Positions 19,013 through 38,574 of a DNA stretch of 38,574 nt are shown one piece after another (the stretch's first letter is position 1; each line of letters starts with the position of its first letter). Source of the DNA: Actinomycetes bacterium (GTDB lineage: Bacteria; Actinomycetota; Acidimicrobiia; Acidimicrobiales; UBA8190); the NCBI GenBank assembly GCA_021848085.1, contig JAJZNB010000214.1, positions 1-38,574 of the forward strand, given 5' to 3'. The notes below the pieces were generated by a model. It did no database searches. It was not told the origin of the DNA and worked only from the letters and a program-made list of their open reading frames with translations. The position numbers were made by a program, and so were the translations under genes.

Positions 19013-19025
19013 GGAGGCAAGACCG

Positions 19026-20084
19026 ATGCCACACGAGACCGTCGCGGTCATCGGCGGCGGGCCGGCCGGCCTGGCCGCCGCCCAGGCCGCCTCGGACCTG
19101 GGAGCGCCCGTGGTGCTGATCGAGCAGGGCGACGCCCTCGGCGGCACGCCCATCGCCGAGAGCTATGCCTCGCTCACCCCCCACCTCGAATCGGCCGAGA
19201 CGGTCCTCGGGCGGCTGGTGCAGCGCCTGGAGGCCTCTCCCCACACCGACATCCTCCTCGGGGCGCAGGTCACGGCGTGCACCGGCGACGTGGGTCACTT
19301 CGAGCTGCAGGTCGAGATGGGCGCCACCTCGCGCACCGTCAGCTGCGGTGCCGTGGTGCTGGCCACCGGCTTTCAGCACTTCGACCCCGGTCGCGAGACC
19401 CAGATGTACGGCTACTACGAGTTCCCCGACGTGATCGCCCTGCAGGACCTCGAAGCCATGATCAAAGCCGGGTCGATCGCCAAGCCGTCCAACGGCCAGG
19501 CGCCGCGGCGGCTGTGCTTCGTGCAGTGCGTCGGCAGCCGCGACCGCCAGATCGGCAACGAGTACTGCTCCAAGGTGTGCTGCGGCGTCGCCTCCAAGGA
19601 GGCGATCGAGGTGCGCCTGCTGCTGCCCGAGTGCGAGGTGTTCATCTTCTACATCGACATGCGCATGTACGGCTACTGGGAGAGCCAGATCTACTGGCCG
19701 GCCCAGGAGCGTCACCACGTCCAGTACGTGAAGGGGATCATCAGCGAGGTGCTGCCCAAGGGCGACCAGCTGCTGGTGCGCGGGGAGGACACCACCATGG
19801 GCCGCCCCATGGAGATCCTCATGGACATGGTGGTGCTGTCGGTGGGGATGGAGCCTTCCCCGGGGACCCGGGCCATGGCCGGTGTGCTCGGCGTGGAGCA
19901 GAACAGCTACGGCTTCATCGCCGCCGCCCACCCGCCGCTCGACACCGTGTCGACCAGCCGACCCGGCATCTTCGCCGCCGGCGCCGCCCTCGGCCCCGCC
20001 GACCTCGAGGACTGCGCCTCGACCGGGGCCGCCGCCGCCGCCCGCGCCGTGTCGGTCATCCGTTCGGTACCGGCGGCAGGCTGA
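19026..20084 (+). CDS. shdrA: sHdrA, FAD-binding subunit
   Basis: This 352-residue flavoprotein begins at the dinucleotide-binding motif VAVIGGGPAGLAAAQAA. VVLATGFQHFDP follows, then the HdrA cysteine motif CFVQCVGSRDRQIGNEYCSKVCCG (Cys164, 168, 181, 185, 186) for an Fe-S cluster next to the flavin. RPGIFAAGAALGPADLEDCASTGAAAA closes the FAD site. It lacks the extra ferredoxin domains of methanogen HdrA, as expected for the short sHdrA. GAGGAGG upstream of ATG 19026 is a strong ribosome site. It would sit at the centre of the complex, joining the C1B1 and C2B2 arms. Confidence 0.93.
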   Translation: MPHETVAVIGGGPAGLAAAQAASDLGAPVVLIEQGDALGGTPIAESYASLTPHLESAETVLGRLVQRLEASPHTDILLGAQVTACTGDVGHFELQVEMGATSRTVSCGAVVLATGFQHFDPGRETQMYGYYEFPDVIALQDLEAMIKAGSIAKPSNGQAPRRLCFVQCVGSRDRQIGNEYCSKVCCGVASKEAIEVRLLLPECEVFIFYIDMRMYGYWESQIYWPAQERHHVQYVKGIISEVLPKGDQLLVRGEDTTMGRPMEILMDMVVLSVGMEPSPGTRAMAGVLGVEQNSYGFIAAAHPPLDTVSTSRPGIFAAGAALGPADLEDCASTGAAAAARAVSVIRSVPAAG

Positions 20085-20092
20085 GGACGTCG

Positions 20093-20842
20093 ATGGCCCT
20101 GTCGGCGACGCCGGGTGCGGTGATCGACACCGCGGCGACCCGCGAGCTCATGGCCGAGATCCTGGCCCGCGTCGACCGCGGCGACCTCGACACCATGGCC
20201 AGCCAGCTTCTGGCCAAGGCTCGCCAGGTCCAGGGGGTGCTCGACCCCGGTGCCGGCACCCCCGACGCCGAGCAGCTGCACTGGCTGCTGCGACGCTGCT
20301 TCCCCGCCCGCCGCCAGGCCGCCGCCATCGTGGCCCAGGTCGGGGCCCGGCCCCTGGGCCACGCCGTGGCCGACCTGGTGTGGGGCCACGACGACCTGGC
20401 CGAGCGCCTCGACCGCTTCGACCGGCTGCTGGGCGGCTTCCCCGAGGTCGCCGTCGACCTCCCCTGGGAGCTGCTGCACCTGGCCGACCCCCAGCACCAC
20501 TGGCTGTGGGCCCGCTGGATGTGGAACCCCCGCACCGACACCGGCGCTCTGCGGCTGGTGGTGGAGGACGAGGTGGAGCTGGCCGCGCCCACCCGGGTGG
20601 AGGCCTACCGTCGGGTGGGTCGGGCCCTGGCCGTGGTGCAGGGCACCGCCCGCGCCGTCGGCTTCGTCGGCGACGGCCCCTTCGCCGTCGACGCCTTCCT
20701 GGCCTGTGTCTACGGCATCTACATGTACACGGTGCTGCGGATGCGGATGACCCAGGAGTTCAATCGCATCGTCCCCGAGCTGCCCGCGCTGGCCCGCCGG
20801 CTGCTCGGGATCTACCACCGGGAGGAGCCGCCGTGCCGGTAG
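20093..20842 (+). CDS. sHdr-associated conserved protein of unknown function (Hyp)
   Basis: This 249-residue protein occupies the position between shdrA and shdrC2 where sHdr clusters carry a conserved gene called hyp. No catalytic motif is recognisable. It is largely helical, with HWLLRRCFPARRQAAAIVAQVGARPLGHAVADLVWG, a Trp-rich stretch HLADPQHHWLWARWMWNP and a moderately hydrophobic FLACVYGIYMYTVLRMRMTQEFNRIVPEL. I saw few cysteines, so it is unlikely to hold an Fe-S cluster. A scaffold or assembly role for the complex is plausible but inferred only from gene position. The ATG is 8 nt after the shdrA stop; its end overlaps the next start. Confidence 0.75.
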   Translation: MALSATPGAVIDTAATRELMAEILARVDRGDLDTMASQLLAKARQVQGVLDPGAGTPDAEQLHWLLRRCFPARRQAAAIVAQVGARPLGHAVADLVWGHDDLAERLDRFDRLLGGFPEVAVDLPWELLHLADPQHHWLWARWMWNPRTDTGALRLVVEDEVELAAPTRVEAYRRVGRALAVVQGTARAVGFVGDGPFAVDAFLACVYGIYMYTVLRMRMTQEFNRIVPELPALARRLLGIYHREEPPCR

Positions 20843-22143
20843 GAGGGCGCAAGCAGCCGCCTGCGGTTCGCGAGCACGAGAGCGCCACCGTCACCTCGCA
20901 GATCTCGGGGCGCCAGTGGGAGCTGCCCGGCATGTGGAACCGCATGTTCGAGTCGCGGGTGCTCCACGACTACAGCAGCCAGGGCTTCGCCGCCCTGGCC
21001 GCCTTGCCCGGCGGCGAGTCGCTCGAATGGTGCTACGGCTGCGGCAAGTGCGTGCCGGTCTGCCCCGTCGACCTGGTCGGCGAGTACGGGCCGCGCAAGC
21101 TGCACCGCAAGGTGCAGACCGGCGTCGACCTGCTCGCCGACCCGGACCTGTGGCTGTGCACCACCTGCGGCAACTGCCTGCGGGTGTGCCCCAAGCAGGT
21201 CGACATGGTGCAGGTGGCGCCGGCCGGCCGCGAGGCAGCCATCGGCCAGGGCCACGTCCCGGCCGAGCTGCAGGACGTGTTCGAGAAGACCTTCCGCCAG
21301 GGCAACTGCCTGGGCGAGAACCCGCGGCGCCGCCACGCCTGGACCAAGCAGGCCGGCGTGCCGGTCCGGGTGCTGGCCAGCGACCCCGGTCCCGTCGACG
21401 TGCTGTTCTACGTGGAGGACTACTGGAGCTACCACCCCCGCGGCCAGCAGGCGGCCCAGGCCTTCGCCCGGATCCTGACCGCCTTGGACGTCGACTTCGC
21501 CATCTTGGGCCCCGAGGAGAAGACGGTCGGCGACAGCCAGCGCCTGGCCGGCGAGCGGGGCCTGTTCGAGGCGCTGATGGACGACGTGGCGGCCACCTTG
21601 GCCAAGTACGACTTCCGCCGGATCGTCACCCCCGACCCCCAGATCGGAAACGCCTTGCGCCGCGAGTACCCCAAGCACGGACACCACTACGACGTGGTGC
21701 ACACCACCCAGCTGCTGGCCCCGCTGGTGGAGCGCCTCACCTGGCGCACCAGCATCGACGCCACCGTCACCTTCCACGACCCGTGCTACCTCGGCCGGCA
21801 CAACGGCGAGTACGACGCGCCGCGCCGGCTGCTCGAGGCCATCCCCGGCGTCACGCTGGTCGAGATGGGCCGCTGCAAGCAGAACGGCTACTGCTGCGGC
21901 GGTGGCGGTGGCGGCATGTGGCTCGACGGCTTCACCGCCGAGCACACCGACGAGCGCCTGTCGGAACGGCGGGTGCGCGAAGCCGCCGACACCGGCGCCG
22001 ACATCCTGGCCGTGTGCTGCCCCTACGAGGTGTCGCGCTTCGAGGACGCGGCCAAGTCCACCGGCCACGACCACCTGCAGGTCCTCGACATCGTGGAGCT
22101 GCTCGACCAGGCCATGGGCGGGGGTGCCGGCGCCGATGCCTGA
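20833..22143 (+). CDS. shdrC2B2: sHdrC2-sHdrB2 fusion protein
   Basis: This single 436-residue protein combines the second HdrC and HdrB modules, which are usually separate genes in sHdr clusters. The N-terminal ferredoxin-like part has CYGCGKCVPVCP (Cys67-77) and CTTCGNCLRVCP (Cys109-119). The C-terminal HdrB/HdrD-type part has HDPCYLGRHNGEYDAP, NGYCCGGGGGGMW and LAVCCPYEVSRFEDA. The first CCG half has lost its cysteines (VGDSQRLAGERGLF), leaving one intact CCG site. GGGAGGAG precedes GTG 20833, which overlaps the hyp stop. The layout resembles HdrD or GlpC. It probably forms the electron exit or lipoate-facing arm of the complex. Confidence 0.9.
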   Translation: MPVGGRKQPPAVREHESATVTSQISGRQWELPGMWNRMFESRVLHDYSSQGFAALAALPGGESLEWCYGCGKCVPVCPVDLVGEYGPRKLHRKVQTGVDLLADPDLWLCTTCGNCLRVCPKQVDMVQVAPAGREAAIGQGHVPAELQDVFEKTFRQGNCLGENPRRRHAWTKQAGVPVRVLASDPGPVDVLFYVEDYWSYHPRGQQAAQAFARILTALDVDFAILGPEEKTVGDSQRLAGERGLFEALMDDVAATLAKYDFRRIVTPDPQIGNALRREYPKHGHHYDVVHTTQLLAPLVERLTWRTSIDATVTFHDPCYLGRHNGEYDAPRRLLEAIPGVTLVEMGRCKQNGYCCGGGGGGMWLDGFTAEHTDERLSERRVREAADTGADILAVCCPYEVSRFEDAAKSTGHDHLQVLDIVELLDQAMGGGAGADA

Positions 22144-23233
22144 GCGGCCCGCCCTGCGCGTCGTGGACTTCGGGACGGTGAGCCCGCTGCGCTCCCAGAC
22201 CCTGTGGCACGCCGTGGCCTACGGGGTGGGGGCCGGCGCCCCGCCCACCTTGTCCTTCGTGCGGACCCGCAGCCCCTACGTGTCGATCGGCTTCCACCGC
22301 AGCCTCGACGAGCTCGACACCGACCGCTGCGGCCACGCCGGCTGGCCCGTGTACCGGCGCATGGTCGGCGGCGGCCCCGTCTACCTCGATCACGACCAGC
22401 TGTGCTTCCAGCTGACGCTGCCGGCCGCGGCGGTGCCCGCCGACCGCCAGCGGGCCCTGCGCCAGCTGCTCACCCCGGCGGTGGCGGCCTTCCGCGCCGC
22501 CGGGCTCGACGCCCACCTCGACCACGACCTCGAGGTGGTGGTCGGCGACCGCAAGGTGTGCGGCCACGGCGCCGCCCAGATCGGCTCGAGCGTGGTGGTG
22601 GTCGGCAACCTGATCGAGCGCTTCGACCACACCGCCGCCGCCTCGGTGCTGCGCGCCCCCGACGCCGATGAGGCCGGCGAGACCCTGCGCCTCATGCGGC
22701 GCTACGTCGCCTTCGACGGGTCGGGCCCCGATGTCGACGCCGCCGCCTTCGCCGACGCCGCCTGCCGGGCCTACGGCGCCGCGCTCGGCCTCGCCCCCCG
22801 CCCCGGCGCGCTCAGCGCGCTGGAAGCCGCCCAGCTGGTCGGCCTCGACCGGCGCCTGCGCGACCCGGCGTGGACCCGCGGCCGGCCGCGTCTGGCCGGG
22901 CCGGCGGGCACAGCGCCGGTGGGCACAGCGCCGGTGGGCACAGCGCCTACGGGCACAGCGCCGGCGGGCACAGCGCCGGTGTGGAAGGTGAAGGTGCGGG
23001 CCGGGGTGTGGCGGTGCTCGGTGCTCGAGCCCGCCGGCAAGGTGGCTGCTTCGGTGGTGCACGGGCGGGTCCAACGGCTGGTGGTGCAGGCCGACGGCGT
23101 CGACCCGGCGCGGGCCGCCGCGGCCGCCGAAGGGCTCACGGTGGCCGCCGCCGCCGACGCCGCCCGCCGCTGGGGGCCGGCCGGGCCGGCCGTGGCCGGC
23201 GCGCTCCGCCAGATCCAACAGGAGGCTGCATGA
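22136..23233 (+). CDS. Lipoate-protein ligase-like protein 1 with C-terminal accessory domain
   Basis: This 365-residue protein of the BPL/LplA/LipB superfamily is expected to attach lipoate or octanoate to LbpA. Catalytic-fold motifs are YVSIGFHRSLDELD, YRRMVGGGPVYLDHDQLCFQL (RRxxGGG loop) and VVGDRKVCGHGAAQIG with the conserved Lys140. After the catalytic domain come five copies of GTAPV encoded by a 15-nt repeat, then a domain of about 85 residues (VWKVKVRAGVWRCSVLEPAGKVAASVV...) like the LplB or C-terminal domain of LplA. It overlaps shdrC2B2 by 8 nt. It is distinct from the second ligase at 24671, so the operon encodes two. Confidence 0.85.
   Translation: MPERPALRVVDFGTVSPLRSQTLWHAVAYGVGAGAPPTLSFVRTRSPYVSIGFHRSLDELDTDRCGHAGWPVYRRMVGGGPVYLDHDQLCFQLTLPAAAVPADRQRALRQLLTPAVAAFRAAGLDAHLDHDLEVVVGDRKVCGHGAAQIGSSVVVVGNLIERFDHTAAASVLRAPDADEAGETLRLMRRYVAFDGSGPDVDAAAFADAACRAYGAALGLAPRPGALSALEAAQLVGLDRRLRDPAWTRGRPRLAGPAGTAPVGTAPVGTAPTGTAPAGTAPVWKVKVRAGVWRCSVLEPAGKVAASVVHGRVQRLVVQADGVDPARAAAAAEGLTVAAAADAARRWGPAGPAVAGALRQIQQEAA
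22906..22980 (+). repeat. 15-nt in-frame tandem repeat, five copies
   Basis: Five 15-nt units, four nearly identical, encode GTAPV-type pentapeptides that link the catalytic and C-terminal domains of lipoate ligase 1. Confidence 0.88.
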
Positions 23234-23673
23234 TCAGCACCGTCGCCGGTTTCCAGATCCGCCTGGATCTCGCCTACGACCCCGACACCCACCTGTGGGT
23301 GGAGGAGGTCGGCGCCTCGGTCCGGGTCGGGCTCGACCCTCTGGCCGTCGAGTCCAACGGCACCCTGGCCGCCGTGTCGTTCGCCGAGGTCGGCACGGCG
23401 CTGCGGCGCGGCGCCGTCTTCGGCTCGCTCGAGGCGGAGAAGTTCGTCGGCCCGCTGCTGGCCCCCCGGGCGGGCATCTTGGCCGCGGTGAACCCGGCGG
23501 TGCTGGGCCAGCCGTCGCTGGTCCACGCCGACCCCTACGACGCCTGGCTGGCCGTGCTCACCCCGGCCGACCCCAACGACGCCGCCGCCTTGGTGCGCGG
23601 TGCCCAGGCGGTGGAGACCTGGTTCACCCGGGCCGTCCACCACTACCGGCAGCAGGGGGTGCTGGCCGAGTGA
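23230..23673 (+). CDS. lbpA1: Lipoate-binding protein LbpA, first copy
   Basis: This 147-residue GcvH-like protein has its lipoylation site at Lys71 in GSLEAEKFVGPLLAPRAG, in the hairpin turn where GcvH has ESVKA. Flanking strands (HLWVEEVGASVRVGLDPLA, DPYDAWLAVLTPADPND) match the hammerhead fold. The VGP after the lysine is shared with the two other LbpA copies of this operon and separates them from glycine-cleavage GcvH; no gcvT or gcvP is present. LbpA is essential in sHdr sulfur oxidation, where its lipoyl arm is thought to carry sulfur intermediates. AGGAGG lies just upstream of ATG 23230, and the gene overlaps the ligase end. Confidence 0.9.
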   Translation: MISTVAGFQIRLDLAYDPDTHLWVEEVGASVRVGLDPLAVESNGTLAAVSFAEVGTALRRGAVFGSLEAEKFVGPLLAPRAGILAAVNPAVLGQPSLVHADPYDAWLAVLTPADPNDAAALVRGAQAVETWFTRAVHHYRQQGVLAE

Positions 23674-24674
23674 CCACCGTCAGCCACGCCTTCGCCCTGC
23701 GCCAGGCCCAGTTCCCCGACGAGATCGAGTTCTACGCCCCCGGGCTCAAGCGCTGGCAGACCAGCGAGTGGCGACCCCGGCACCCGACCCGCTTCCTGCC
23801 GGTGTCGGTCACCGGCTCGGCCTGCGCCCTGCAGTGCGACCACTGCCAGGCCAAGGTCCTCGACGGCATGATCTCGGTGCGCGCCGGGCAGGACCTGTTC
23901 GACCTGGCCCGCCGCCTGAAGGCCGGCGGCAGCCAGGGCCTGCTGGTGTCGGGAGGCTCCACCCGCACCGGCGGGGTGCCGCTGGCCGGACATCTGCGCC
24001 ACGTGCCGCGCATCCGTCACGAGCTGGGCATGCGGGTGGTCGTCCACTCCGGGGTGGTGACCCCGGCGCTGGCCGAAGCGCTGGCCGACGCCGAGGTCGA
24101 CGCCGTGATGCTCGACATCATCGGCGCCGATGCCACCATCCGCGACGTCTACCACCTCGACCTCACCGTGGCCGACTTCGAGCGCTCCCTGGCCCTGCTG
24201 GCCGGGCGGGGCCTGCGGATCATCCCGCACCTGGTGCTGGGCCTGCACTACGGGCGCTTCCTCGGTGAGCACCACGCCCTCGAGATGGTGGCCCGCCATC
24301 GGGTGTCGACGCTCATCCTGGTGGTGCTGGTGCCGCTGGTCGACACCCCCATGGCCCACCTGGCGCCGCCGGCTGTCGACGAGGTGGTCGGCTTCTTCGA
24401 GCACACCCGGCTGGCCATGCCCACCACCCGCGTCAACCTGGGCTGTGCCCGGCCCATGGGGGCGGCCAAGGTGGAGCTCGACACCGCCGCCGTCGACCTC
24501 GGCCTCAACGGCATCGCCTATCCCGCCGAGGGCATCATCGACTACGCCCGCCGCCGCGGCCTGCAGCCCAAGCTGTTCGAGTGGTGCTGCTCCATGTCGT
24601 GGGCCGGCGCCGAAGGCGCCGGGCTCGCCGAGGTGCGGGTCGGGGGGCCGGTGCCGGTGGAGGCGGCGCCGTGA
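23670..24674 (+). CDS. lipS1: Radical SAM lipoyl synthase component LipS1
   Basis: This 334-residue radical SAM protein starts at a GTG overlapping the lbpA1 stop. The cluster motif is ACALQCDHCQAKVLDG (Cys52, 56, 59; CxxxCxxC). LLVSGGSTRTGGVPL corresponds to the GGE-like SAM-binding region and GLRIIPHLVLGLHYG to a barrel strand. Further cysteines at NLGCARPMG and FEWCCSMSW could hold an auxiliary cluster, which sulfur-inserting synthases need. LipS1 and LipS2 together replace LipA in inserting the two sulfurs into octanoyl groups. The assignment rests on its neighbours (lbpA, two ligases and a second radical SAM gene) and on the known LipS1/LipS2 pairing. Confidence 0.85.
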   Translation: MTTVSHAFALRQAQFPDEIEFYAPGLKRWQTSEWRPRHPTRFLPVSVTGSACALQCDHCQAKVLDGMISVRAGQDLFDLARRLKAGGSQGLLVSGGSTRTGGVPLAGHLRHVPRIRHELGMRVVVHSGVVTPALAEALADAEVDAVMLDIIGADATIRDVYHLDLTVADFERSLALLAGRGLRIIPHLVLGLHYGRFLGEHHALEMVARHRVSTLILVVLVPLVDTPMAHLAPPAVDEVVGFFEHTRLAMPTTRVNLGCARPMGAAKVELDTAAVDLGLNGIAYPAEGIIDYARRRGLQPKLFEWCCSMSWAGAEGAGLAEVRVGGPVPVEAAP

Positions 24675-25780
24675 GCCCCTGGCGGCTGCTTCGCCACCAG
24701 GGGGTCGGCGCCGCCGAAGGCCTGGCCCTCGACGAGGCGCTCGCCGCCGGCTACGGCCGCCACAGCGAGCGGCGACCCCCCACCCTGCGGCTCTACACCT
24801 ACCGCAGCCACTGCGCCCTGGTCGGCCGGTACCAGCATCTGGAGGCCGAGGTCGACCTCGACGCCTGTCGGCGCACCGCCACGCCCGTCAACCGCCGCCC
24901 CACCGGCGGCGGCGCCATCGTCATGGGTGCCGGCCAGCTGGGGGTGGCCCTGGCCACCGCCGCTCCCGCCGCCCAGCGGCCCCGGCAGCTGCTGGAAGGC
25001 TTCGCCGGCGGGCTGATCGCCGGGCTGGCCCGCCTCGGCGTCACCGCCGGCTTCCGGGGCAAGAACGACCTCGAGGTCGACGGCCGCAAGATCGCCGGGC
25101 TCGGCCTGGCCCTCGACGGCTCCGGCGGCCTGCTGCTGCACGCCTCGGTGCTCGCCGACCTCGACGTGGCGTTCATGCTGCAGGTGCTGCGCATCCCCGC
25201 CGCCAAGCTCGGCGGGCACGCCGTGGCGTCGGTGGAAGAGCGCATCACCACCGTCACCGGTCAGACCGGCCAGCGCTGGGACGGTCAGCGCCTGGCCGGC
25301 GTCGTCGCCGCCGGGTTCGCCGAGGCTCTGGGGGTGGAGCTGGCCCTCGACCGGCCCACCGCCGACGAGCAGCGGCGCGCCGCCGCCTTGGTGACCGAGC
25401 GCTACGCCAACCCAACCTGGTGGCACGAGCACAGCCCCCGCCCCGAGGCCACCACCGACGCCGAGCTGCGCCTGCCGGTGGGGCTGGTCCGCCTGTACCT
25501 GGCACTGAGCGGCGACACCATCAAGAGCCTGCTGTTCACCGGTGACTTCACCACCGTGCCCGGCCCGCTGGTGGCCCTCGAGGAGGCGCTGCGCTGGAAG
25601 CGCCTGGAGCGGGCCGTGGTCGAGCCGGCTGTGGCCGCCTGCCTGGCCGGCCACCCCGAGCTCGGGCCGCCCGATGCGGTGGCCGAGGCCGTGCTGTCCG
25701 CCGGCACCCGACGAACCGCCACCGCCGCCCCCCAGCGGCACGGGTCGTGCTACTTCCCGGAGGTCCTCACCCCGTCATGA
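24671..25780 (+). CDS. Lipoate-protein ligase-like protein 2, sLpl(AB)-like
   Basis: This 369-residue lipoate ligase lies between the two lipS genes. Motifs are GLALDEALAAGYG at the N-terminus, YRSHCALVGRYQHLEAEVDLDAC, NRRPTGGGAIVMGAGQLGVAL, and NDLEVDGRKIAGLGLALDGSGGLLLHASVL with the acyl-adenylate lysine at Lys140. KLGGHAVASVEERITTVT follows. The C-terminal 100 residues (LRLPVGLVRLYLALSGDTIKSLLFTGDF...) look like the LplB/accessory domain, giving the AB arrangement described for the sHdr-linked ligase that loads octanoate or lipoate on LbpA. The GTG start overlaps lipS1. Compared with ligase 1 it has the GGGAIxxG loop, so the two are not recent duplicates. Confidence 0.88.
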   Translation: MSPWRLLRHQGVGAAEGLALDEALAAGYGRHSERRPPTLRLYTYRSHCALVGRYQHLEAEVDLDACRRTATPVNRRPTGGGAIVMGAGQLGVALATAAPAAQRPRQLLEGFAGGLIAGLARLGVTAGFRGKNDLEVDGRKIAGLGLALDGSGGLLLHASVLADLDVAFMLQVLRIPAAKLGGHAVASVEERITTVTGQTGQRWDGQRLAGVVAAGFAEALGVELALDRPTADEQRRAAALVTERYANPTWWHEHSPRPEATTDAELRLPVGLVRLYLALSGDTIKSLLFTGDFTTVPGPLVALEEALRWKRLERAVVEPAVAACLAGHPELGPPDAVAEAVLSAGTRRTATAAPQRHGSCYFPEVLTPS

Positions 25781-26886
25781 CCACTCCCACCACCACCACC
25801 ACCGGCCGGCGGCTGCCGGTGCACGGCGAGCGCCCGGCCAGCCCCGACTGGGTGCGGATCTCCGGGGCCAGCGCCATCGCCCTCCGCTTGCGCTCCGGGC
25901 GCTTCAGCCGGCCGTTCCCCTTCGGCGGGATCAACCTGCTGCTGGCCTACGACGACGGCTGCCGGTCGGACTGCTCGTACTGCGGCCTGGCCCGCACCCG
26001 CCCCGGCGCCTACCGCGACAAGTCCTTCATCCGAGTCGAGTGGCCCCTGGTGCGCACCGACGACCTGGTGGAGCGCATGGCCGCCCACGCCGACACCCTG
26101 ACCCGGCTGTGCATCTCGATGGTCACCCACCCCTTCGCCTACCGCGACACCTGCGACATCACCGGGCGCATCCGGGCCCGGGTCGACACCCCGCTGTCGA
26201 TCCTGGTCGCCCCCCCGACCCTCAACCGGCGGCGGATCGAGCAGCTGCACGCCCTGGGCGCCGACATGATCGGCGTCGGCCTCGACGCCGCCACCGAACA
26301 GCTGTTCCGCACCCATCGCCGCGACGTCCCCGCCGGCGGCGCCGGGCTCAGCTGGGACCGGTACTGGGCCGTGGTGGCCGACGCCCGCGACGTGTTCGGG
26401 GCGTGGAAGGTCAACTGCCACGTGCTGGTCGGTCTGGGCGAGAGCGACGCCGACCTGGTCGACCTGTTCACCCGCCTGCGTGACCAGCAGGTGTTCTCCT
26501 ACCTGTTCTGCTTCAACCCCGAACCCGACTCGCGCCTGGGTCAGCAGCCCAAGGCGCCGCTGCGGCGCTGGCGGCGGATCCAGCTGGTGAAGCACCTCAT
26601 CGAGAGCGAGGGGCTCGACCCCGGCCAGCTCGACTTCGACGGCGCCGGCAACCTGACCCATCTGCGTGCCGCGCCGGGCCTGGTCGACACCGCCGTCGGC
26701 AGCGGCATCCCGTTTCTGACCAACGGCTGCCCCGGCGAGCACGGCGAGCCGGGCTGCACCCGCCCCTACGGCTCGTACCGACCCAGCGAACCGTTTCGCG
26801 ACTTCCCGTTCCAACCGACCGACTCCGACCTGCGCCAGGTCCGCGGCGAGCTGGCGCTCCACCAGATCCTCGAGAAGGCGTGGTGA
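25777..26886 (+). CDS. lipS2: Radical SAM lipoyl synthase component LipS2
   Basis: This 369-residue radical SAM protein overlaps the previous gene by 4 nt (ATGA). The cluster motif is DGCRSDCSYCGLART (Cys62, 66, 69). GADMIGVGLDAATEQLF and VNCHVLVGLGESDADLVDLFTRLRD are typical SAM-barrel elements, while LFCFNPEPDSRLG and PKAPLRRWRRIQLVKHLI are seen in lipoyl/biotin-synthase-like enzymes. A C-terminal NGCPGEHGEPGCTRPYGSYRPSEPFRDFPF supplies two cysteines that may hold an auxiliary cluster. It is expected to act with LipS1 to convert octanoyl-LbpA to lipoyl-LbpA. The N-terminus has a run of threonines before the fold. Confidence 0.86.
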   Translation: MTTPTTTTTGRRLPVHGERPASPDWVRISGASAIALRLRSGRFSRPFPFGGINLLLAYDDGCRSDCSYCGLARTRPGAYRDKSFIRVEWPLVRTDDLVERMAAHADTLTRLCISMVTHPFAYRDTCDITGRIRARVDTPLSILVAPPTLNRRRIEQLHALGADMIGVGLDAATEQLFRTHRRDVPAGGAGLSWDRYWAVVADARDVFGAWKVNCHVLVGLGESDADLVDLFTRLRDQQVFSYLFCFNPEPDSRLGQQPKAPLRRWRRIQLVKHLIESEGLDPGQLDFDGAGNLTHLRAAPGLVDTAVGSGIPFLTNGCPGEHGEPGCTRPYGSYRPSEPFRDFPFQPTDSDLRQVRGELALHQILEKAW

Positions 26887-27674
26887 TCCCCGTGCGCATC
26901 ATCGTCGTGGTGAAGCAGCTGCCCGATCTCGTCGAGGAGCTCGAGCTCGACGACGACGGCACCGACGTCGACCGTGAGCTCCTCAGCTTCGTCGCCAACG
27001 AGTGGGACGAGCAGGCCCTCGAAGAGGCGCTGCTGGTGAAGGAGACCGTCGGTGCCGAGGTGGTGGTCGTCGGCCTCGACGAGCCCGACATCGACCAGAC
27101 GCTGTACACGGCCGTGGCTCGCGGCGCCGACGCCGTGGTGAAGCTGACCGGCATCCCCCAGGGCTGGCTGTCCACCCATGCCCGCGCCGACATCCTGGCC
27201 GGCTGGCTGGCCGATCAGCCCTTCGACCTGATCGTCACCGGGGTGCAGGCCGCCGACGACCTCGACGGGCAGCTGGCCGGGCTGCTGGCCGCCCGGCTGC
27301 AGCTGCCGCACGCCGCCGTGGTGGTGGCCATGGAGGTCAAAGACGGGATGCTCAGCGTCTCCCAGGAGCTCGGCGGCGGCGCCGTAGCCGAGTCCGACAT
27401 CCGCCTGCCAGCCGTCATCGGCATGCAGACCGCTCGCCAGGCGCCGCGCTACGCGCCGATCAGCCGGATCCGCCAGGCCATGCAGGCCGGCGGCATCGTC
27501 GAGACCCCCGCCGCCGCCGCTGGCGGCGCCGCGCCGTGGCCCGAGGGGATGACCATCCGACGGCTCTACCCCCCTGAGACGTCGGCCCACGCCGAGATGC
27601 TCGAAGGCGACGCCGGCGCCGTCGCCGAGCGCATCGTGGAGCTGCTCCGGGCCCGGGGCCTGGTCAAGCGATAG
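26883..27674 (+). CDS. etfB: Electron transfer flavoprotein beta subunit
   Basis: This EtfB of about 263 residues opens RIIVVVKQLPDLVEELELDDDG, followed by FVANEWDEQALEEALLVKE and GADAVVKLTG, standard family elements. The nucleotide-binding region reads DLIVTGVQAADDLDGQLAGLLAARLQLPHAAVV. The loop QAADDLDGQLAG lacks the usual threonine of the canonical DDDT segment, so AMP or flavin binding may differ. PRYAPISRIRQAM precedes a C-terminal segment that would wrap around EtfA. GTG 26883 overlaps the lipS2 stop; GTG 26880 and 26892 are alternatives. No acyl-CoA dehydrogenase is nearby, so the partner is probably in the sHdr/LbpA system. Confidence 0.9.
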   Translation: MIPVRIIVVVKQLPDLVEELELDDDGTDVDRELLSFVANEWDEQALEEALLVKETVGAEVVVVGLDEPDIDQTLYTAVARGADAVVKLTGIPQGWLSTHARADILAGWLADQPFDLIVTGVQAADDLDGQLAGLLAARLQLPHAAVVVAMEVKDGMLSVSQELGGGAVAESDIRLPAVIGMQTARQAPRYAPISRIRQAMQAGGIVETPAAAAGGAAPWPEGMTIRRLYPPETSAHAEMLEGDAGAVAERIVELLRARGLVKR

Positions 27675-27682
27675 GAGGATCG

Positions 27683-28639
27683 ATGGCTGACGACGTGCTG
27701 GTGCTCGCCGAGCACACCGACGGGGTCCTGTCGGACCTCACCTTCGAGCTGATCGGCCAGGCTCGCCGGATGGCCGACGCCTTCGGCGGGCAGGTCCGGG
27801 TGGCGTTGCTGGGCGCACCGGAGCTGGCCGACCAGCTCGGCGCGGCCGACGTGGTCCACCTGGCCGAGCACCCCGCCTTGGGCGGCTACCTGCCCGAGGC
27901 CTACGAGCGGGCCCTGACCCAGCTGCTGGGCGAGGTGCAGCCCCGTCTGCTGCTGCTGGGCACCTCCACCGCCGGCATGGATCTCGGTGCCGCCGTGGCC
28001 GTCGCCTGGCAGGCGCCGCTGGCCTCCTACGTCGTCGCCCTCGAGGCCGAGGGCGACACGGTGGTGGCCACCGCCCAGATCTACGCCGGCAAGCTGATGG
28101 CCGAGGTGGCGCTCGACGGGCCGCGGGCGGTGTGCACCGTGATCGGCGGCTCGTTCCCCGCCGACGCCGGGCGCGCCGAGGGACGGCCGACGCTGACGCC
28201 GCTGGCCGTCACCGGCCTCGACGACCTGCGCAGCACCTTCGGGCAGCTTCGCCTGCCCGACGCCTCGGGTCTCGACATCACCGCCGCCGACCTGCTGGTG
28301 TCGGTGGGCCGCGGCATCGGCAGCCAGGACAACCTCGAGGTGGTCCAGGAGCTGGCCGACACGCTCGGCGTGCCGCTGTCCGCCTCGCGGCCCATCATCG
28401 ACCAGGGCTGGCTCCCCAAGCCGCACCAGGTTGGCAAGTCGGGCAAGAAGGTGAAGCCCAAGGCCTACCTGTCGTTCGGCATCTCCGGCGCACCCGAGCA
28501 CCTCGAAGGCATGCGCGGCGCCGAGCTGATCATCGCCTGCAACACCGACCGGCGCGCCCCGATCTTCGACGTGGCCCACTACGGCACCACCGTCGACCTG
28601 TTCGACCTGGTACCCGAGCTGGTCGACCGGCTGGGCTGA
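27683..28639 (+). CDS. etfA: Electron transfer flavoprotein alpha subunit
   Basis: This 318-residue EtfA has the C-terminal FAD domain intact: LVSVGRGIGSQDNLEVVQELADTLG, LSASRPIIDQGWLPKPHQVGKSG, KAYLSFGISGAPEHLEGM and IIACNTDRRAPIFDVAHYGTTVDLFDLVPEL. The N-terminal domain begins VLVLAEHTDGVLSDLTFELIGQA. GGAGG sits 5 nt before ATG 27683 and the gene follows etfB by 8 nt. The two should form a heterodimer that passes electrons to a membrane Etf:quinone oxidoreductase, and the next gene fits that role. No N-terminal ferredoxin domain is present. Confidence 0.93.
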   Translation: MADDVLVLAEHTDGVLSDLTFELIGQARRMADAFGGQVRVALLGAPELADQLGAADVVHLAEHPALGGYLPEAYERALTQLLGEVQPRLLLLGTSTAGMDLGAAVAVAWQAPLASYVVALEAEGDTVVATAQIYAGKLMAEVALDGPRAVCTVIGGSFPADAGRAEGRPTLTPLAVTGLDDLRSTFGQLRLPDASGLDITAADLLVSVGRGIGSQDNLEVVQELADTLGVPLSASRPIIDQGWLPKPHQVGKSGKKVKPKAYLSFGISGAPEHLEGMRGAELIIACNTDRRAPIFDVAHYGTTVDLFDLVPELVDRLG

Positions 28640-28674: not shown

Positions 28675-30936
28675 GTGACGGCCGTGGTGGTCACCCGCCA
28701 CATCTTCGGCGGGATGGGACCGGCCCAGATCGCCGTGTTCTATCTGCTGGCCGTGGCGGCCATCGCCGTCTTCGCCGTCGGCTGGGGACGGCGGGTGGCC
28801 AAGTACCGTGCCGGGCGCCCCTCGCCTCGACCGTGGCTGCGGCGCTCGGGCGCCGGCATCCCCGGGGTGACCGCCCGCCCCGGCACGGTCCGGTCGCTGG
28901 GCACCGTCCTCACCAACCGCACCGTCAGGCGACGCAAGCCGGTGGTGGGCCTCGCCCACCTGCTGGTGCTGTGGGGCTTTCTGGGGCTGCTGCTGGCCAC
29001 CACCATCGTCGGCGTCGACTACGACGTCTACGGCCACCTGATCACCGGCGTGGTGCTGGGCCACCAGCGGTCGTTCCTGACCGGCGTCTTCTACGAGACG
29101 TTCAACGCCGTGTTCAACACCGCCGGGGTGGCTCTGCTCATCGGCACGGTGGTGCTCACCGTCCGGCGGTTGCGGCGGGCCGAGCCGCAGCTGGCCTACA
29201 CCCGCGTCGACCGCGACCGTCGCGACTACTCGCGAGCTGCGCTCGTCGCCGGGGACCACCTGTTCCTCAGCCTGCTGCTGGCCCTGGTGGTCACCGGGTT
29301 CGTCGTCCAAGGGGTGCGCATCGTCGGCGCCGGGTTCCCCGGCTTCGAACGCTTCACCTGGATGGGCTGGCTGGTGGCCAAGGCGCTGTCGGGCCTGGGG
29401 CTCGGCGCCGGCGCGGCCCGGACGCTGCACGGCTACGTGTGGTGGCTGCACGCCGCTTTGGCCCTGGGCTTCGTGGCCTCGATCCCCTTCACCAAGGCCA
29501 GGCACATGCTGTCGTCGCCGGCCAACCTGGTGGCCGCCGACCCCGCCCCCACCCGCCGCCTGCCGCCGGTCAGCGGCGACCACGTCGGCTACGCCAGCCT
29601 GGCCGACTTCACCTGGAAGGAGCTGCTCGACTTCGACGCCTGCACCCGGTGCGGCCGCTGCCATCAGGTCTGCCCGGCCCGCACCGCCGGAGCCGCCTTG
29701 TCGCCGCGCGACCTGATCCTCGACCTGCGCCAGTGGGTCGACCGGCAAAAGCAGCTTCCGGCGCTGCTCGACGGCGAGATCCGCACCGACGGCACCGGGC
29801 CGCTGGCCGATCCACCGGCCGAACCGGCCGGCGACGTCATCGCCGAGCGCACCTTGTGGGCCTGCACCACCTGCATGGCCTGCGTCGAGGTCTGCCCGGT
29901 GGGGGTGGAGCACGTCCCCACCATCGTGCAGCTGCGCCGACGCCTGGTGGACCAGGGCCGCATGGAGCCGACCCTGCAGAGCGCGCTGCAGAACCTGGCC
30001 CAGCAGGGCAATTCGTTCGGGAAGTCGGCCCGCATGCGGGCCCGGTGGACCAAGGCCCTCGACTTCCCGGTCAAAGACGCCCGCAAGGAGCCGGTGCAGC
30101 TGCTGTGGTTCGTCGGCGACCACGCCTCCTACGACGAGCGGATGCAGACCCTGTCGCAGACCCTGGCCCGGGTGCTGCACCGGGCCGGGGTCGACTTCGG
30201 CCTGCTCTACGACGACGAGCGCAACGCCGGCAACGACGTCCGACGGGTGGGGGAAGAGGGGCTGTTCGAGCTGCTGGCCGAGCACAACATCGCCGCCTTG
30301 GGCCGGGCCGAGTTCACCGAGATCTTCACCACCGACCCCCACAGCTTCAACACGCTGCGCAACGAGTACCCCACCTTGGGCCTCAAGGCCACCGTCCGCC
30401 ACTACAGCCAGGTGCTGGCCGACCTGCTCAAAGCCGGCCGCCTGCCGGTGCGACCCCTCGGCCTGCGGGTCACCTACCACGACCCGTGCTATCTGGCCCG
30501 CTACAACAAGGTCACCGAGGCGCCGCGGCGGGTCCTGGCCGCCTTGGGCTGCGAGCTGGTCGAGATGCCCCGCAACCGCGACAACACCTTCTGCTGCGGC
30601 GCCGGCGGCGGCCGGATCTGGATGGACGACTCGCACCTGACCGAGCGTCCCAGCGAGAACCGCATCACCGAGGCCGCCGCCTTGGGGGTGGAGCGCTTCG
30701 TGGTGGCCTGCCCCAAGGACTTCGCCATGTACTCCGACGCGGCCAAGACCACCGGCCACGACGGCGACCTGCTGGTGTGCGACCTGGTGCAGCTGGTGGA
30801 GCTGGCCCTCACCGAGCCGGTGCCGGCCGGGGTCGGGACTGGCACCTCCGAGCCGGCTGGCACCTCCGAGCCGGCTGGCACCTCCGAGCCGGCGGGGACC
30901 GACGGCGCCGGGCGCGTCCCGGCCGGCGGGGGGTGA
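28675..30936 (+). CDS. etfD: Membrane b-heme/Fe-S protein, Etf:menaquinone oxidoreductase-like (EtfD/HdrD-NarI fusion)
   Basis: This 753-residue protein fuses a NarI/HdrE-like membrane domain to an HdrD-like iron-sulfur domain. About six hydrophobic helices lie in residues 10-275, with histidines in PVVGLAHLLVLWGF, AGDHLFLSLLLAL and RTLHGYVWWLHAALALGF suited to b-type hemes. The cytoplasmic part holds CTRCGRCHQVCP and CTTCMACVEVCP clusters and a CCG site (HDPCYLARYNKV, NTFCCGAGGGRIWM, VACPKDF). Its first CCG half is cysteine-free, as in shdrC2B2. Proteins of this build beside etfBA, such as EtfD of mycobacteria, oxidise Etf and reduce menaquinone. AGGGAGG precedes GTG 28675. The tail carries GTSEPA repeats. 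Confidence 0.88.
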   Translation: MTAVVVTRHIFGGMGPAQIAVFYLLAVAAIAVFAVGWGRRVAKYRAGRPSPRPWLRRSGAGIPGVTARPGTVRSLGTVLTNRTVRRRKPVVGLAHLLVLWGFLGLLLATTIVGVDYDVYGHLITGVVLGHQRSFLTGVFYETFNAVFNTAGVALLIGTVVLTVRRLRRAEPQLAYTRVDRDRRDYSRAALVAGDHLFLSLLLALVVTGFVVQGVRIVGAGFPGFERFTWMGWLVAKALSGLGLGAGAARTLHGYVWWLHAALALGFVASIPFTKARHMLSSPANLVAADPAPTRRLPPVSGDHVGYASLADFTWKELLDFDACTRCGRCHQVCPARTAGAALSPRDLILDLRQWVDRQKQLPALLDGEIRTDGTGPLADPPAEPAGDVIAERTLWACTTCMACVEVCPVGVEHVPTIVQLRRRLVDQGRMEPTLQSALQNLAQQGNSFGKSARMRARWTKALDFPVKDARKEPVQLLWFVGDHASYDERMQTLSQTLARVLHRAGVDFGLLYDDERNAGNDVRRVGEEGLFELLAEHNIAALGRAEFTEIFTTDPHSFNTLRNEYPTLGLKATVRHYSQVLADLLKAGRLPVRPLGLRVTYHDPCYLARYNKVTEAPRRVLAALGCELVEMPRNRDNTFCCGAGGGRIWMDDSHLTERPSENRITEAAALGVERFVVACPKDFAMYSDAAKTTGHDGDLLVCDLVQLVELALTEPVPAGVGTGTSEPAGTSEPAGTSEPAGTDGAGRVPAGGG
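30841..30894 (+). repeat. 18-nt in-frame tandem repeat, three copies
   Basis: Three 18-nt units, identical except for the last base, encode GTSEPA in the C-terminal tail of the EtfD-like protein. Confidence 0.9.
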
Positions 30937-31229
30937 CGGTGCGCTGCCCGTGGTGCGACTTCGACGGTGGGCTGCGGCCGCTGCACGCCCACCTGGCCGA
31001 CCGCCATCCCGACCAGGTGCGCTTCGAGCAGCGCGCCGGCGGCACCCGTCAGGTGTACGCCGTGGCCTGCCCGGTGTGCGACGCCGGCTACGAGCAGACC
31101 ATCAAACCCGGTCACGACGCCGGCTTCGTCGACGAGTACCGCCGCGAGATCCGGCTGGTGGCCTTCGACATGTTGTTGAACCACCTGGTGGGTGAGCACC
31201 AGCCGCCCGCCGGCCCGACAGCCAGCTGA
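30933..31229 (+). CDS. Small duplicated CxxC/HxxxxH zinc-finger-like protein
   Basis: I do not recognise this 98-residue protein as a named family. It has two similar metal-binding halves: CPWC (Cys5, Cys8) with HAHLADRH (His20, His25), and CPVC (Cys46, Cys49) with LNHLVGEH (His84, His89). Each could form a C2H2-type zinc site; a rubredoxin-like iron site is less likely because of the histidines. The GTG start overlaps the etfD stop in a GTGA junction, and lbpA2 follows 11 nt after its stop, so it is embedded in the operon. It could be a small regulator, a chaperone for Fe-S or LbpA partners, or a structural linker. Function is unknown. Confidence 0.72.
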   Translation: MTVRCPWCDFDGGLRPLHAHLADRHPDQVRFEQRAGGTRQVYAVACPVCDAGYEQTIKPGHDAGFVDEYRREIRLVAFDMLLNHLVGEHQPPAGPTAS

Positions 31230-31240
31230 GGAAGGCGCCA

Positions 31241-31681
31241 GTGCCGAACGTCCGAGGATGCGACCTCCGCGAGGACCTCTACTACCTGGTCGACAAGCAC
31301 GTGTGGGCCCGCCTCGACGGCGATCTGGTCGAGGTCGGGTTGAGCGACGTCGCCCAGGGGATGGCCAAGACCATCATCTCGGTGTCGCTCAAGGAGCCGG
31401 GCAAGACGGTCAAGAAGGGCCGCAGCCTGGCCACGGTCGAGAGCGGCAAGTGGGTGGGTCCGGTGCCCTCGCCGGTCAACGGCGAGGTGGTGGAGGTCAA
31501 CGCCGCCTTGGTGGCCCACCCCGCCGCCATCAACGAGGACCCCTACGGGGCGGGCTGGGTGGCCAGGGTCCGCTGCGCCGACTGGGCCGCCGACTCCGCC
31601 GACCTGGTGACCGGCCCCGAGGGGGTGGAGCGCTACCGGGCGTTCCTCGAGGCGGAGGGCATCTCCTGCGAGGAGAGCTGA
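31241..31681 (+). CDS. lbpA2: Lipoate-binding protein LbpA, second copy
   Basis: This 146-residue GcvH-like protein has its lipoyl lysine at Lys70 in ATVESGKWVGPVPSPVNGEVV. The core strands YLVDKHVWARLDGDLVEVGLSDVAQ and EDPYGAGWVARVRC are well kept. The ESGKWVGP motif is closer to lbpA3 (ESSKWVGP) than to lbpA1 (EAEKFVGP), which implies that copies 2 and 3 arose by local duplication. GAGGAAGG lies upstream of GTG 31241. Placement directly after the Etf branch suggests a lipoyl carrier working at the electron-transfer end of the pathway, although this is inference. Confidence 0.9.
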   Translation: MPNVRGCDLREDLYYLVDKHVWARLDGDLVEVGLSDVAQGMAKTIISVSLKEPGKTVKKGRSLATVESGKWVGPVPSPVNGEVVEVNAALVAHPAAINEDPYGAGWVARVRCADWAADSADLVTGPEGVERYRAFLEAEGISCEES

Positions 31682-31684
31682 GCG

Positions 31685-32140
31685 GTGGGCACCGTCACCT
31701 GGGCCGGCTGCGCCTTCCCCGACGACCTGCTCTACGACCTGCAGCACGACGTGTGGGTGCGGCTGGGCGACGGCCAGGCCGAGATCGGCATGACCGACGT
31801 GGCCCAGACCCGCTGCGGGCGGCTGGTCGAGGTCACCTGGAAGGCACCGGGCCGTCTCGTGCGGCGGGGCCGGCCGCTGTGCATCGTCGAGAGCTCCAAG
31901 TGGGTGGGCCCGGTGCTGTCGCCGCTGTCGGGCACGGTGGCGGCCTGCAACGCCGAGGGATTCGCCGCCGACATCGCCATCGCCAACCGCGACCCCTACG
32001 GCGCCGGCTGGCTGGTGCGCCTGGACCTGGCCGGCCCCGCCGAGGAGCTGGCGACGCTGCGCGACGGCGCCGCCGCCTACCAGCACTACCGCCAGGTCAT
32101 CGACGAGCAGCAGATCCGCTGCTTTCGCTGCGCCGAGTGA
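31685..32140 (+). CDS. lbpA3: Lipoate-binding protein LbpA, third copy
   Basis: This 151-residue GcvH-like protein has its lipoyl lysine at Lys72 in CIVESSKWVGPVLSPLSGTV. The N-terminal YDLQHDVWVRLGDGQAEIGMTDVAQ and the later NRDPYGAGWLVRLDLAG are the expected strands. It carries extra cysteines (Cys9, Cys44, Cys66 and two in the C-terminal RCFRCAE) that lbpA2 largely lacks. The terminal CFRC pair could bind metal or form a disulfide. GTG 31685 is 3 nt after the lbpA2 stop. A 172-nt gap follows before dsrE. Confidence 0.9.
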   Translation: MGTVTWAGCAFPDDLLYDLQHDVWVRLGDGQAEIGMTDVAQTRCGRLVEVTWKAPGRLVRRGRPLCIVESSKWVGPVLSPLSGTVAACNAEGFAADIAIANRDPYGAGWLVRLDLAGPAEELATLRDGAAAYQHYRQVIDEQQIRCFRCAE

Positions 32141-32312: not shown

Positions 32313-32813
32313 ATGACACACGGAGACGGACCCGCACATCACAAGACGATGGCCATGGTGTGCTGGAGCTCGGACCTCGACCGGGTGTGGCCGACGTTGA
32401 TCCTGGCCACCACGGCAGCCGCGTCGGGCCTCGAGGTCAGCATCTTCTTCACCTTCTGGGGGCTGCGGGTCCTGCAGAAGAACGAGACCCGCCTCACCGG
32501 CACCAACCTGATGCAGAAGGCCGAGTCGCTGCTCGACCGGGGCGGCACCGACCACCTGAAGCTGGGCAAGCTGCACTTCGGCGGCGCCGGCACCAAGATG
32601 ATCAAGAAGCTCGCCGACGACTACAAGGTGGCCAGCCCGAGCGACCTGCTGTCGATGGCGCTCGACCTCGGGGTGCACCTGTATCCCTGCCAGATGACGA
32701 TGGACCTCTACGGGCTCAGCAAGGACGACTTCATCGACGGGCTCGAGCCCTCCATGGGCGCCGCCTCCTTCATCGACATTGCCGCCGACGCCGACATCAC
32801 CCTCTTCATCTGA
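32313..32813 (+). CDS. dsrE3A: DsrE3A-like sulfurtransferase (second DsrE-family gene)
   Basis: This 166-residue DsrE/DsrF/DrsH-like protein has MAMVCWSSDLDRVWPTLILATTAAASGLEVSIFFTFWGLRVL followed by the active-site segment LGVHLYPCQMTMDLYGLSKDDFIDG with Cys126. The CQMTMDL context is typical of DsrE3A, the sulfurtransferase that hands sulfur to TusA in sHdr organisms. GGAGGGGG precedes ATG 32313, a strong ribosome site, after a gap of 172 nt that also reads open in frame but lacks conserved sequence. It may have separate expression from the genes upstream. It is clearly different from the TusA-linked DsrE at 16718. Confidence 0.9.
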   Translation: MTHGDGPAHHKTMAMVCWSSDLDRVWPTLILATTAAASGLEVSIFFTFWGLRVLQKNETRLTGTNLMQKAESLLDRGGTDHLKLGKLHFGGAGTKMIKKLADDYKVASPSDLLSMALDLGVHLYPCQMTMDLYGLSKDDFIDGLEPSMGAASFIDIAADADITLFI

Positions 32814-32829: not shown

Positions 32830-32889
32830 GCTGGCGCCACGGCTGGCGCCACTGCTGGCGCCACTGCTGGCGCCACGGCTGGCGCCACG
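32830..32889 (+). repeat. 12-nt tandem repeat, five copies, each with a TGGCGCCA palindrome
   Basis: Five 12-nt units (GCTGGCGCCACG or ...CT) follow the dsrE stop. They are in frame with the Rieske gene and would encode AGAT repeats if translation began upstream. Each unit contains the palindrome TGGCGCCA, so RNA from this stretch could fold into several alternative hairpins. Confidence 0.85.
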
Positions 32890-32928
32890 GCACCGGCGGC
32901 CGGTGCCGGCGCGGTGGAGAGGCCCGCC

Positions 32929-33600
32929 GTGGACACCACCGGCCTGTCCGACGCGCTGGTCTTCGTCGGTGCCGACCCCCACCTTCGGCGCCAGCTGCAG
33001 GCGCTGGCCGCCGAGCGCGGTCTGGCCGTCGTCGAGGCGGCGGGCGACCCCGGCGGGGAGGCGCCGGTGGTGGTCGTCGACCTCGGCCTGGCCGGCGGCC
33101 TCCAGGCGGTGCGGGCCTGGCGGGCCCGCTCCGTCGACACCGTGGTGGCCGCCTACCTGGCCGTGCCCGACCGGGGTCGCTGGGAGGAGGCGGAGCGGGC
33201 CGGAGCCGACCTGGTGGTCAACCGCGGCGCGCTGGTGCGGGCGCTGCGCCGCCTGCTCCACGACCTCGGCCCTGACGCCCGCCGGCGGCGGTTCCCGCTG
33301 CTGGACGCGGCCGAGGTGGCCGGCCGGCTGGGCCTCATCGGGGCCGTCGGCACCACTCCGGTCGGCCCGCTGGCCGTGTACCGCGCCGGGCGCGGGCTGG
33401 TGGCCGTCGAGGACCGCTGCCCGCACGCCGGCGCCTGCCTGTCGCAGGGAGCGCTCCAGGGCGGGGTGCTGACCTGCCCCGGCCACGGCAGCCAGTTCCT
33501 GGTCGCCACCGGCGAGCGGATCCGGGGGCCGGCCGACCAGGGGCTGCGGTGCTACCCGGCGGTGGAGGAGGCCGGCCGGGTCTGGCTGGTGTGGACGTGA
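32929..33600 (+). CDS. Pseudo-receiver/Rieske [2Fe-2S] fusion protein
   Basis: From the start chosen the protein has 223 residues. The first 110 resemble a degenerate response-regulator fold: DALVFVGADPHLRRQLQALAAERGL, VVVVDLGLAGGLQAVRAWRARSV and AGADLVVNRGALVRALRRLLHDL, without the acidic pair or clear switch residues. The C-terminal half is a Rieske domain: EDRCPHAGACLSQGALQGGVLTCPGHGSQF, with ligands Cys164, His166, Cys183 and His186. No membrane segment or Tat signal is visible, so it is a soluble cytoplasmic Rieske protein. GTG 32929 has GGAGAGG upstream; GTG 32914 or TTG 32779 (273 residues, including the AGAT repeats) are alternatives. It is the last gene of the operon and its partner is unknown. 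Confidence 0.8.
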   Translation: MDTTGLSDALVFVGADPHLRRQLQALAAERGLAVVEAAGDPGGEAPVVVVDLGLAGGLQAVRAWRARSVDTVVAAYLAVPDRGRWEEAERAGADLVVNRGALVRALRRLLHDLGPDARRRRFPLLDAAEVAGRLGLIGAVGTTPVGPLAVYRAGRGLVAVEDRCPHAGACLSQGALQGGVLTCPGHGSQFLVATGERIRGPADQGLRCYPAVEEAGRVWLVWT

Positions 33601-38466: not shown

Positions 38467-38574
38467 TCAGTCGTCGGCCCGATCGACCCGGCCCTCGTCG
38501 GCCCGATCGACCCGGCCCTCGTAGGCCCGATCGACCCGGCCCTCGTAGGCCCGATCGACCCGGCCCTCGTAGGC
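38467..38574 (-). CDS. C-terminal end of a minus-strand gene with AYEGRVDR repeats
   Basis: The last 108 nt read on the minus strand as 35 codons and a TGA (38469-38467) with no interruption, giving repeated AYEGRVDR octapeptides and ending in ADEGRVDRADD. It is convergent with the VIT gene, whose stop is 6 nt away. The repeat follows the pattern of other in-frame gene-end repeats in the window, which supports a real gene starting beyond the right edge. The main domain is not visible. Confidence 0.5.
   Translation of the reverse strand, partial: AYEGRVDRAYEGRVDRAYEGRVDRADEGRVDRADD
38478..38574. repeat. 24-nt tandem repeat, four copies at the right edge
   Basis: Four 24-nt units (core CGATCGACCCGGCCCTCG) run to the end of the window with only one variable base (C or A). 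The array probably continues outside the window. Confidence 0.9.

Follow-up and report, generated by a model that had tools for sequence, protein, structure and literature searches.

A Rieske-type ferredoxin fused to a pseudo-receiver domain in one lineage of type II sHdr sulfur operons of Actinomycetota

The route by which electrons exit the type II sHdr system has, to our knowledge, not been established. The core operon of the DNA analyzed here is of the kind termed type II in PMC11582611 and Group III in PMC6067878; the former defines it by the clustering of shdrC1-B1-A-H-B3 with etfAB, a set that is found here at positions 17109-28639. A mycobacterial EtfD is described as carrying electrons from ETF to menaquinone (PMC13083937). 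The term "Rieske" is missing from the main text of both sHdr papers, and our literature searches, with subscription papers outside their coverage, found no paper linking sHdr to a Rieske protein and no title or abstract on a fusion of a Rieske domain with a receiver or pseudo-receiver. The closest described relatives of the two halves of the protein considered below are the ferredoxins of dioxygenases, and the receiver domains (PF00072) together with the pseudo-receiver of FrzS, in which the phospho-acceptor Asp is missing (PMC1974792).

The window, i.e. the whole stretch of 38,574 nucleotides that was analyzed (contig JAJZNB010000214.1), is like other type II sHdr-EtfAB-LbpA operons in possessing shdrC1-B1-A-hyp-B3, etfBA, three lbpA genes and maturation genes. 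It differs by a fusion gene that is carried by a single lineage of these operons. The genes upstream of the fusion are as follows:

17109-22143, forward strand: shdrC1, B1, A, hyp and the fused B3, the type II sHdr core (conservation; definition in PMC11582611)
22141-26886, forward strand: lipoate maturation genes, namely a ligase-like gene, LbpA (first copy), a radical SAM gene, a second ligase-like gene and a radical SAM gene (radical SAM by Pfam; the others by sequence reading and conservation)
26880-28639, forward strand: etfB and etfA (Pfam ETF and ETF_alpha)
28702-30936, forward strand: EtfD-like membrane Fe-S/CCG oxidoreductase, start approximate (Pfam CCG and Fer4)
30936-31229, forward strand: small CxxC/H-rich protein, conserved in the type II sHdr loci examined (locus comparison)
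31241-31681, forward strand: LbpA (GcvH-like lipoate-binding protein), second copy (Pfam; locus comparison)
31685-32140, forward strand: LbpA (GcvH-like lipoate-binding protein), third copy (Pfam; locus comparison)
32313-32813, forward strand: DsrE2-subtype sulfur carrier gene, directly 5' of the fusion, with the ATG at 32313 chosen as start (Pfam DrsE_2, 5e-44; co-occurrence)

The small CxxC/H-rich protein has only a sub-threshold Pfam match, to zf-Di19. It is present with and without the fusion, wherever this region exists in type II sHdr loci, and lies 5' of the LbpA pair in L085, L086, L088, L091, L092, L107-L110 and L112.

The open reading frames of the window place the fusion gene at 32929-33600 of the forward strand, with a GTG start and 223 codons for amino acids. 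It stands 115 bp 3' of the DsrE2 gene in the type II sHdr locus and is the last gene of a long sulfur operon, in keeping with the place at the operon's end proposed in the sequence-only reading that this analysis followed up. Its features and those of its leader are:

32830-32891, forward strand: 12-bp tandem repeat, 5.2 copies, in the spacer between the DsrE2 and Rieske genes (Tandem Repeats Finder)
32916-32922, forward strand: GGAGAGG, likely ribosome binding site, 6 nt 5' of the GTG (sequence)
32929-33600, forward strand: pseudo-receiver/Rieske fusion coding sequence (open frame; Pfam; full-length conservation in relatives)
32941-33267, forward strand: pseudo-receiver domain, residues 5-113, without α2 (AlphaFold pLDDT 92; Foldseek; hhalign)
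33079-33081, forward strand: codon of D51, the phospho-acceptor Asp position (alignment)
33286-33597, forward strand: Rieske-type ferredoxin domain, residues 120-223 (Pfam PF00355; CarAc-type ferredoxins top in Foldseek)
33418-33432, forward strand: cluster box 1, CPHAG, with C164 and H166 (sequence)
33475-33492, forward strand: cluster box 2, CPGHGS, with C183 and H186 (sequence)

An alternative in-frame TTG at 32779 would prepend a low-complexity leader of AGAT repeats, and a scan of the window for promoters and terminators returned nothing. The AlphaFold model of the whole protein is confident (pLDDT 91.9) and has two domains. This two-domain architecture is kept in relatives down to about 34% identity, indicating that the fusion is neither a chance product nor a mis-assembly. 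Further short tandem repeats occur at 22900-22979, 30839-30893 and 38471-38574 (Tandem Repeats Finder), in-frame inside the lipoate ligase-like and EtfD-like genes and at the end of the window; the four repeats have units of 12, 15, 18 and 24 bp, and several are near-perfect.

On its sequence, the C-terminal half is a Rieske-type ferredoxin. PF00355 matches residues 147-210 with an E-value of 4e-13 and 49.5 bits (cut-off 20.3), and the full ligand set noticed earlier (CPH and CPGH) is borne out, with both boxes intact and the ligands C164, H166, C183 and H186 (CxH...CxxH) invariant in 10/10 full-length fusion proteins, across which the mean column identity of the two boxes is 0.93 and 0.97. 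In Foldseek the best matches of this fold are single-domain dioxygenase ferredoxins (E 1.7e-8 to 2de5_E); CarAc (PDB 2de5, 1vck) and the naphthalene dioxygenase ferredoxin (2qpz) have the same fold with a target-normalised TM of about 0.8, and like the fusion they use CxH/CxxH ligands, lack disulfide cysteines and are soluble. However, they are single-domain proteins that serve oxygenases, whereas the fusion carries a pseudo-receiver at its N-terminus and is encoded in a sulfur operon. As an ordinary Rieske-type ferredoxin is a single domain of about 100 residues and the present protein has an extra N-terminal domain of about 110 residues, we describe it as a fusion variant. These fold matches could also mean that the protein serves a Rieske oxygenase or a nitrite reductase as its ferredoxin subunit and lies here by chance, but the identified neighbours include no oxygenase, reductase or NirB gene and the sulfur context is conserved across families, so that this already disfavoured explanation is very improbable.

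In the Rieske proteins of bc1 and b6f complexes additional cysteines make a disulfide. The corresponding second cysteines are absent from all ten fusion proteins, position 169 being A or S and position 185 G, R or A. Moreover, no membrane segment or N-terminal membrane helix was found in the fusion, whose maximum 19-residue hydropathy is 1.33, in agreement with the earlier statement that it lacks a membrane anchor. The absence of both the extra cysteines and the membrane segment underlies the assignment to the Rieske-type ferredoxins, and a bc1-type Rieske subunit was rejected on the same grounds.

The N-terminal half, modeled alone with AlphaFold from ten relatives (pLDDT 92), has the order β1-α1-β2-β3-α3-β4-α4-β5-α5, with α2 missing. 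The top 50 PDB matches in Foldseek are all response-regulator receivers (query TM about 0.66-0.81), with no non-receiver fold among them; the receiver fold suspected from the sequence was thus recovered by fold prediction. The PF00072 gathering score is not reached, the window's protein having no match and the best E-value being 0.05 in one relative (Pfam). When the profile of this half was aligned with that of 12 receivers of the same genome, the match covered 63 columns and scored 36; in the controls, 20 column shuffles reached no more than 18.8 and the reversed profile 12.5. Together, the structure prediction and the profile comparison support the reading of this half as a predicted receiver fold. 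It also has a weak Pfam match to KDPG aldolase (best E 9.5e-4, in one relative) and PDB sequence matches to IMPDH/GMP reductase; a half TIM barrel or aldolase reading was ruled out, as the model and its Foldseek matches are receivers. KDPG aldolases sought among the relatives as a control set were too few. A Pfam match to diol dehydratase reactivase (E 0.02-0.08) is under the cut-off and was set aside.

The phosphorylation residues had been taken as lost, which is true of part of them. The Thr/Ser at the end of β4 and the Lys at the end of β5 are lost in 10/10 proteins, with A/G and R/V/A/T in their place (alignment by eye, anchored on the GAD motif), and the acidic pair at the end of β1 is reduced: the window has GAD, two adjacent Asp occur only in L027 and L106, and one Asp of the pair (D16) remains in 9/10 proteins. 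Contrary to that claim, the Asp at the end of β3 (D51) is present in 8/10, including the window, and is replaced by Pro in L091 and L092. Switching by phosphate has probably been lost from the receiver half. Its highest conservation is in the α4-β5 region, where P80, W85, E89 and G92 are invariant; in ordinary receivers the α4-β5 face contacts partners. The fold is common to the PF00072 receivers and the FrzS pseudo-receiver (PMC1974792), and the phosphorylation features are eroded as in FrzS. Unlike these, the half described here falls below Pfam detection, lacks α2 and is joined to an electron carrier; it has lost the Thr/Ser and Lys but mostly retains the Asp that FrzS lacks.

The closest relatives found for the N-terminal half are standalone degenerate receivers, with a 98% probability over 101 columns in profile comparison. 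Such proteins, of about 105-120 residues, occur in other Actinomycetota (L131, L132, L133, L143), and Pfam returns no family above cut-off for the three of them that were searched. They match the fusion's half over nearly its full length, but are themselves unfused. Since these nearest relatives are standalone and already degenerate, the sequences suggest that the degeneration of the receiver preceded the fusion.

The fusion is encoded by 9/296 genomes of the class, and a profile of the N-terminal half recovers from the same genomes the identical nine and one weak match, a standalone receiver. Further copies are found in G482 and in G296, which belongs to another class; a scan of genome contigs reached a single full-length relative. 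A tree of Rieske domains (90 rows) groups the fusions in a single clade (support 100/98). It looks like the fusion arose once, and it spans several actinobacterial families. The reading frame of the copy in L090 (G290:C123) is interrupted within Rieske box 2, reflecting decay or an assembly error.

In the window, L085, L086, L091 and L092 the gene order is etfBA, EtfD-like, small CxxC protein, LbpA, LbpA, DsrE2 and fusion, with the last two close together. A search for sHdrB1 in the 296 genomes found 14 sHdr-positive ones, 7 with the fusion and 7 without. The 3' DsrE2 gene is also missing from all five fusion-less genomes with a readable downstream side, and the DsrE2 subtype, taken at ≥70% identity, is missing from all seven. 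This subtype occurs in 8/296 genomes (G000, G014, G134, G048, G191, G197, G212 and G221), each of which has the fusion; the DsrE2 that comes next has 54% identity, and the ninth fusion genome, G290, has only a distant DsrE2. sHdrB1 was not found in G197, which is taken as sHdr-bearing from its DsrE2 subtype and from other members of its genus. The co-occurrence counts are not independent of one another, given that the whole operon may be passed on as a unit. What they do show is that the fusion gene belongs specifically to a single lineage of type II sHdr operons and is unneeded by sHdr in general; it was found in related sHdr loci, but its link is to this lineage and not to sHdr loci at large. 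The fusion-less sHdr operons L108, L109, L110 and L111 have a different DsrE2-like gene (about 31-37% identical) on their 5' side.

Elsewhere the neighbourhood is rearranged. In L087, L088 and L089 the fusion is near an EtfD-like gene, together with TauE (L087, L088) or sat-aprBA-qmo (L089). In G212 the fusion and the EtfD-like gene are a few kb from the LbpA-LbpA-DsrE2 end, adjoined by genes for TauE/SafE, DUF1634 and an ArsR regulator, and the G197 contig has the same arrangement. In G221 the fusion adjoins sat, aprB, aprA, HdrA-like genes and qmoC (the sat-aprBA-HdrA-like-qmoC cluster spans L089:3481-12346, in a genome that also has sHdr genes), while in G296 it lies on the opposite strand about 1.5 kb before an shdrC1B1A operon. 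Given that only part of the sHdr-positive genomes carry the fusion and that the G290 copy is broken, it might be a passenger inherited with one operon lineage and having no important role. This is quite improbable, because the ligands and the RGPAD motif are invariant across proteins only about 34-50% identical to that of the window, and because the gene stays near sulfur genes after rearrangement in G197, G212 and G221, and even in another class (G296). Several actinobacterial families have the joined gene in their sulfur operons, so that it probably belongs to the sulfur-oxidation pathway as an accessory part that has not been described before.

We propose, with about an even chance of being right, that the protein acts as a Rieske-type [2Fe-2S] ferredoxin in the cytoplasm and uses its N-terminal pseudo-receiver as a protein-docking domain; electron transfer, docking and the identity of the partner are what we infer here. 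The cluster would be reduced one electron at a time by a redox step of the sHdr/LbpA/DsrE2 machinery and would pass these electrons in the direction of Etf/EtfD and the menaquinone pool, or else work the opposite way. The pseudo-receiver would hold the ferredoxin on its partner through the conserved α4-β5 face, making it a carrier dedicated to a partner of the DsrE2/Etf/EtfD type. A protein whose purpose lies in a working cluster would be expected to have invariant ligands in near-invariant boxes, as seen here, and no DNA-binding or other output domain was found in it by Pfam or in the AlphaFold model; with a complete cluster, eroded switch residues and a conserved partner face, a carrier with a docking domain reads best. 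Against it, a path from sHdr to EtfD already exists in EtfAB, seven genomes are sHdr-positive yet lack the fusion, the co-occurrence may be no more than the inheritance of a single operon lineage, and the retention of D51 in 8/10 proteins is odd for a pure docking domain. The argument for a docking face is drawn from conservation rather than from a model of a complex.

Alternatively, the carrier might act in sulfite handling, serving EtfD-like or QmoC-like quinone-linked enzymes and not sHdr itself. The adjoining sat, aprB, aprA, HdrA-like (QmoA/B-type) and qmoC genes in L089, the TauE/SafE and DUF1634 genes in L087 and the EtfD-like gene near most copies are consistent with this. However, AprA was not found in the window's genome (89% complete) beyond a weak flavoprotein match, and the commonest setting of the fusion is directly 3' of DsrE2, which makes a role confined to sulfite handling unlikely.

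Returning to the docked carrier, the analysis leans towards it over a redox sensor, in which the cluster would report the electron load of sHdr and the pseudo-receiver would relay this to a partner, e.g. by allosteric control of sHdr, DsrE2 or a kinase/regulator. A sensor role is possible because D51 is mostly retained, D16 persists likewise in 9/10 proteins, and receiver folds are signalling modules. An ArsR-type regulator gene adjoins the fusion in L087 and L088, and sHdr operons of Hyphomicrobium are known to be under the control of ArsR-type repressors (PMC10451225, PMC12423496). Nevertheless, there is no output domain, the Thr/Ser and Lys of the switch are gone from every protein, no kinase or response regulator was recognised beside the fusion in the loci examined, and the ArsR gene is adjacent in one genus only; we accordingly regard a sensor as a minority prospect. 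A bolder proposal, and a rather unlikely one, is that the Rieske cluster and receiver fold form a redox-driven, phosphate-free switch gating a DsrE2-linked step of type II sHdr, with redox state replacing phosphorylation as the input.

If the docked carrier is correct, a dedicated Rieske protein tied to one DsrE2 subtype would be an added one-electron component of type II sHdr, and its joined cluster and receiver fold would clearly exemplify how a signalling module can be given a new use in redox docking. Genome G000 also encodes a second Rieske ferredoxin (G000:C146, L093:4609-4926), which on sequence reading lies among SUF cluster-assembly-like genes.
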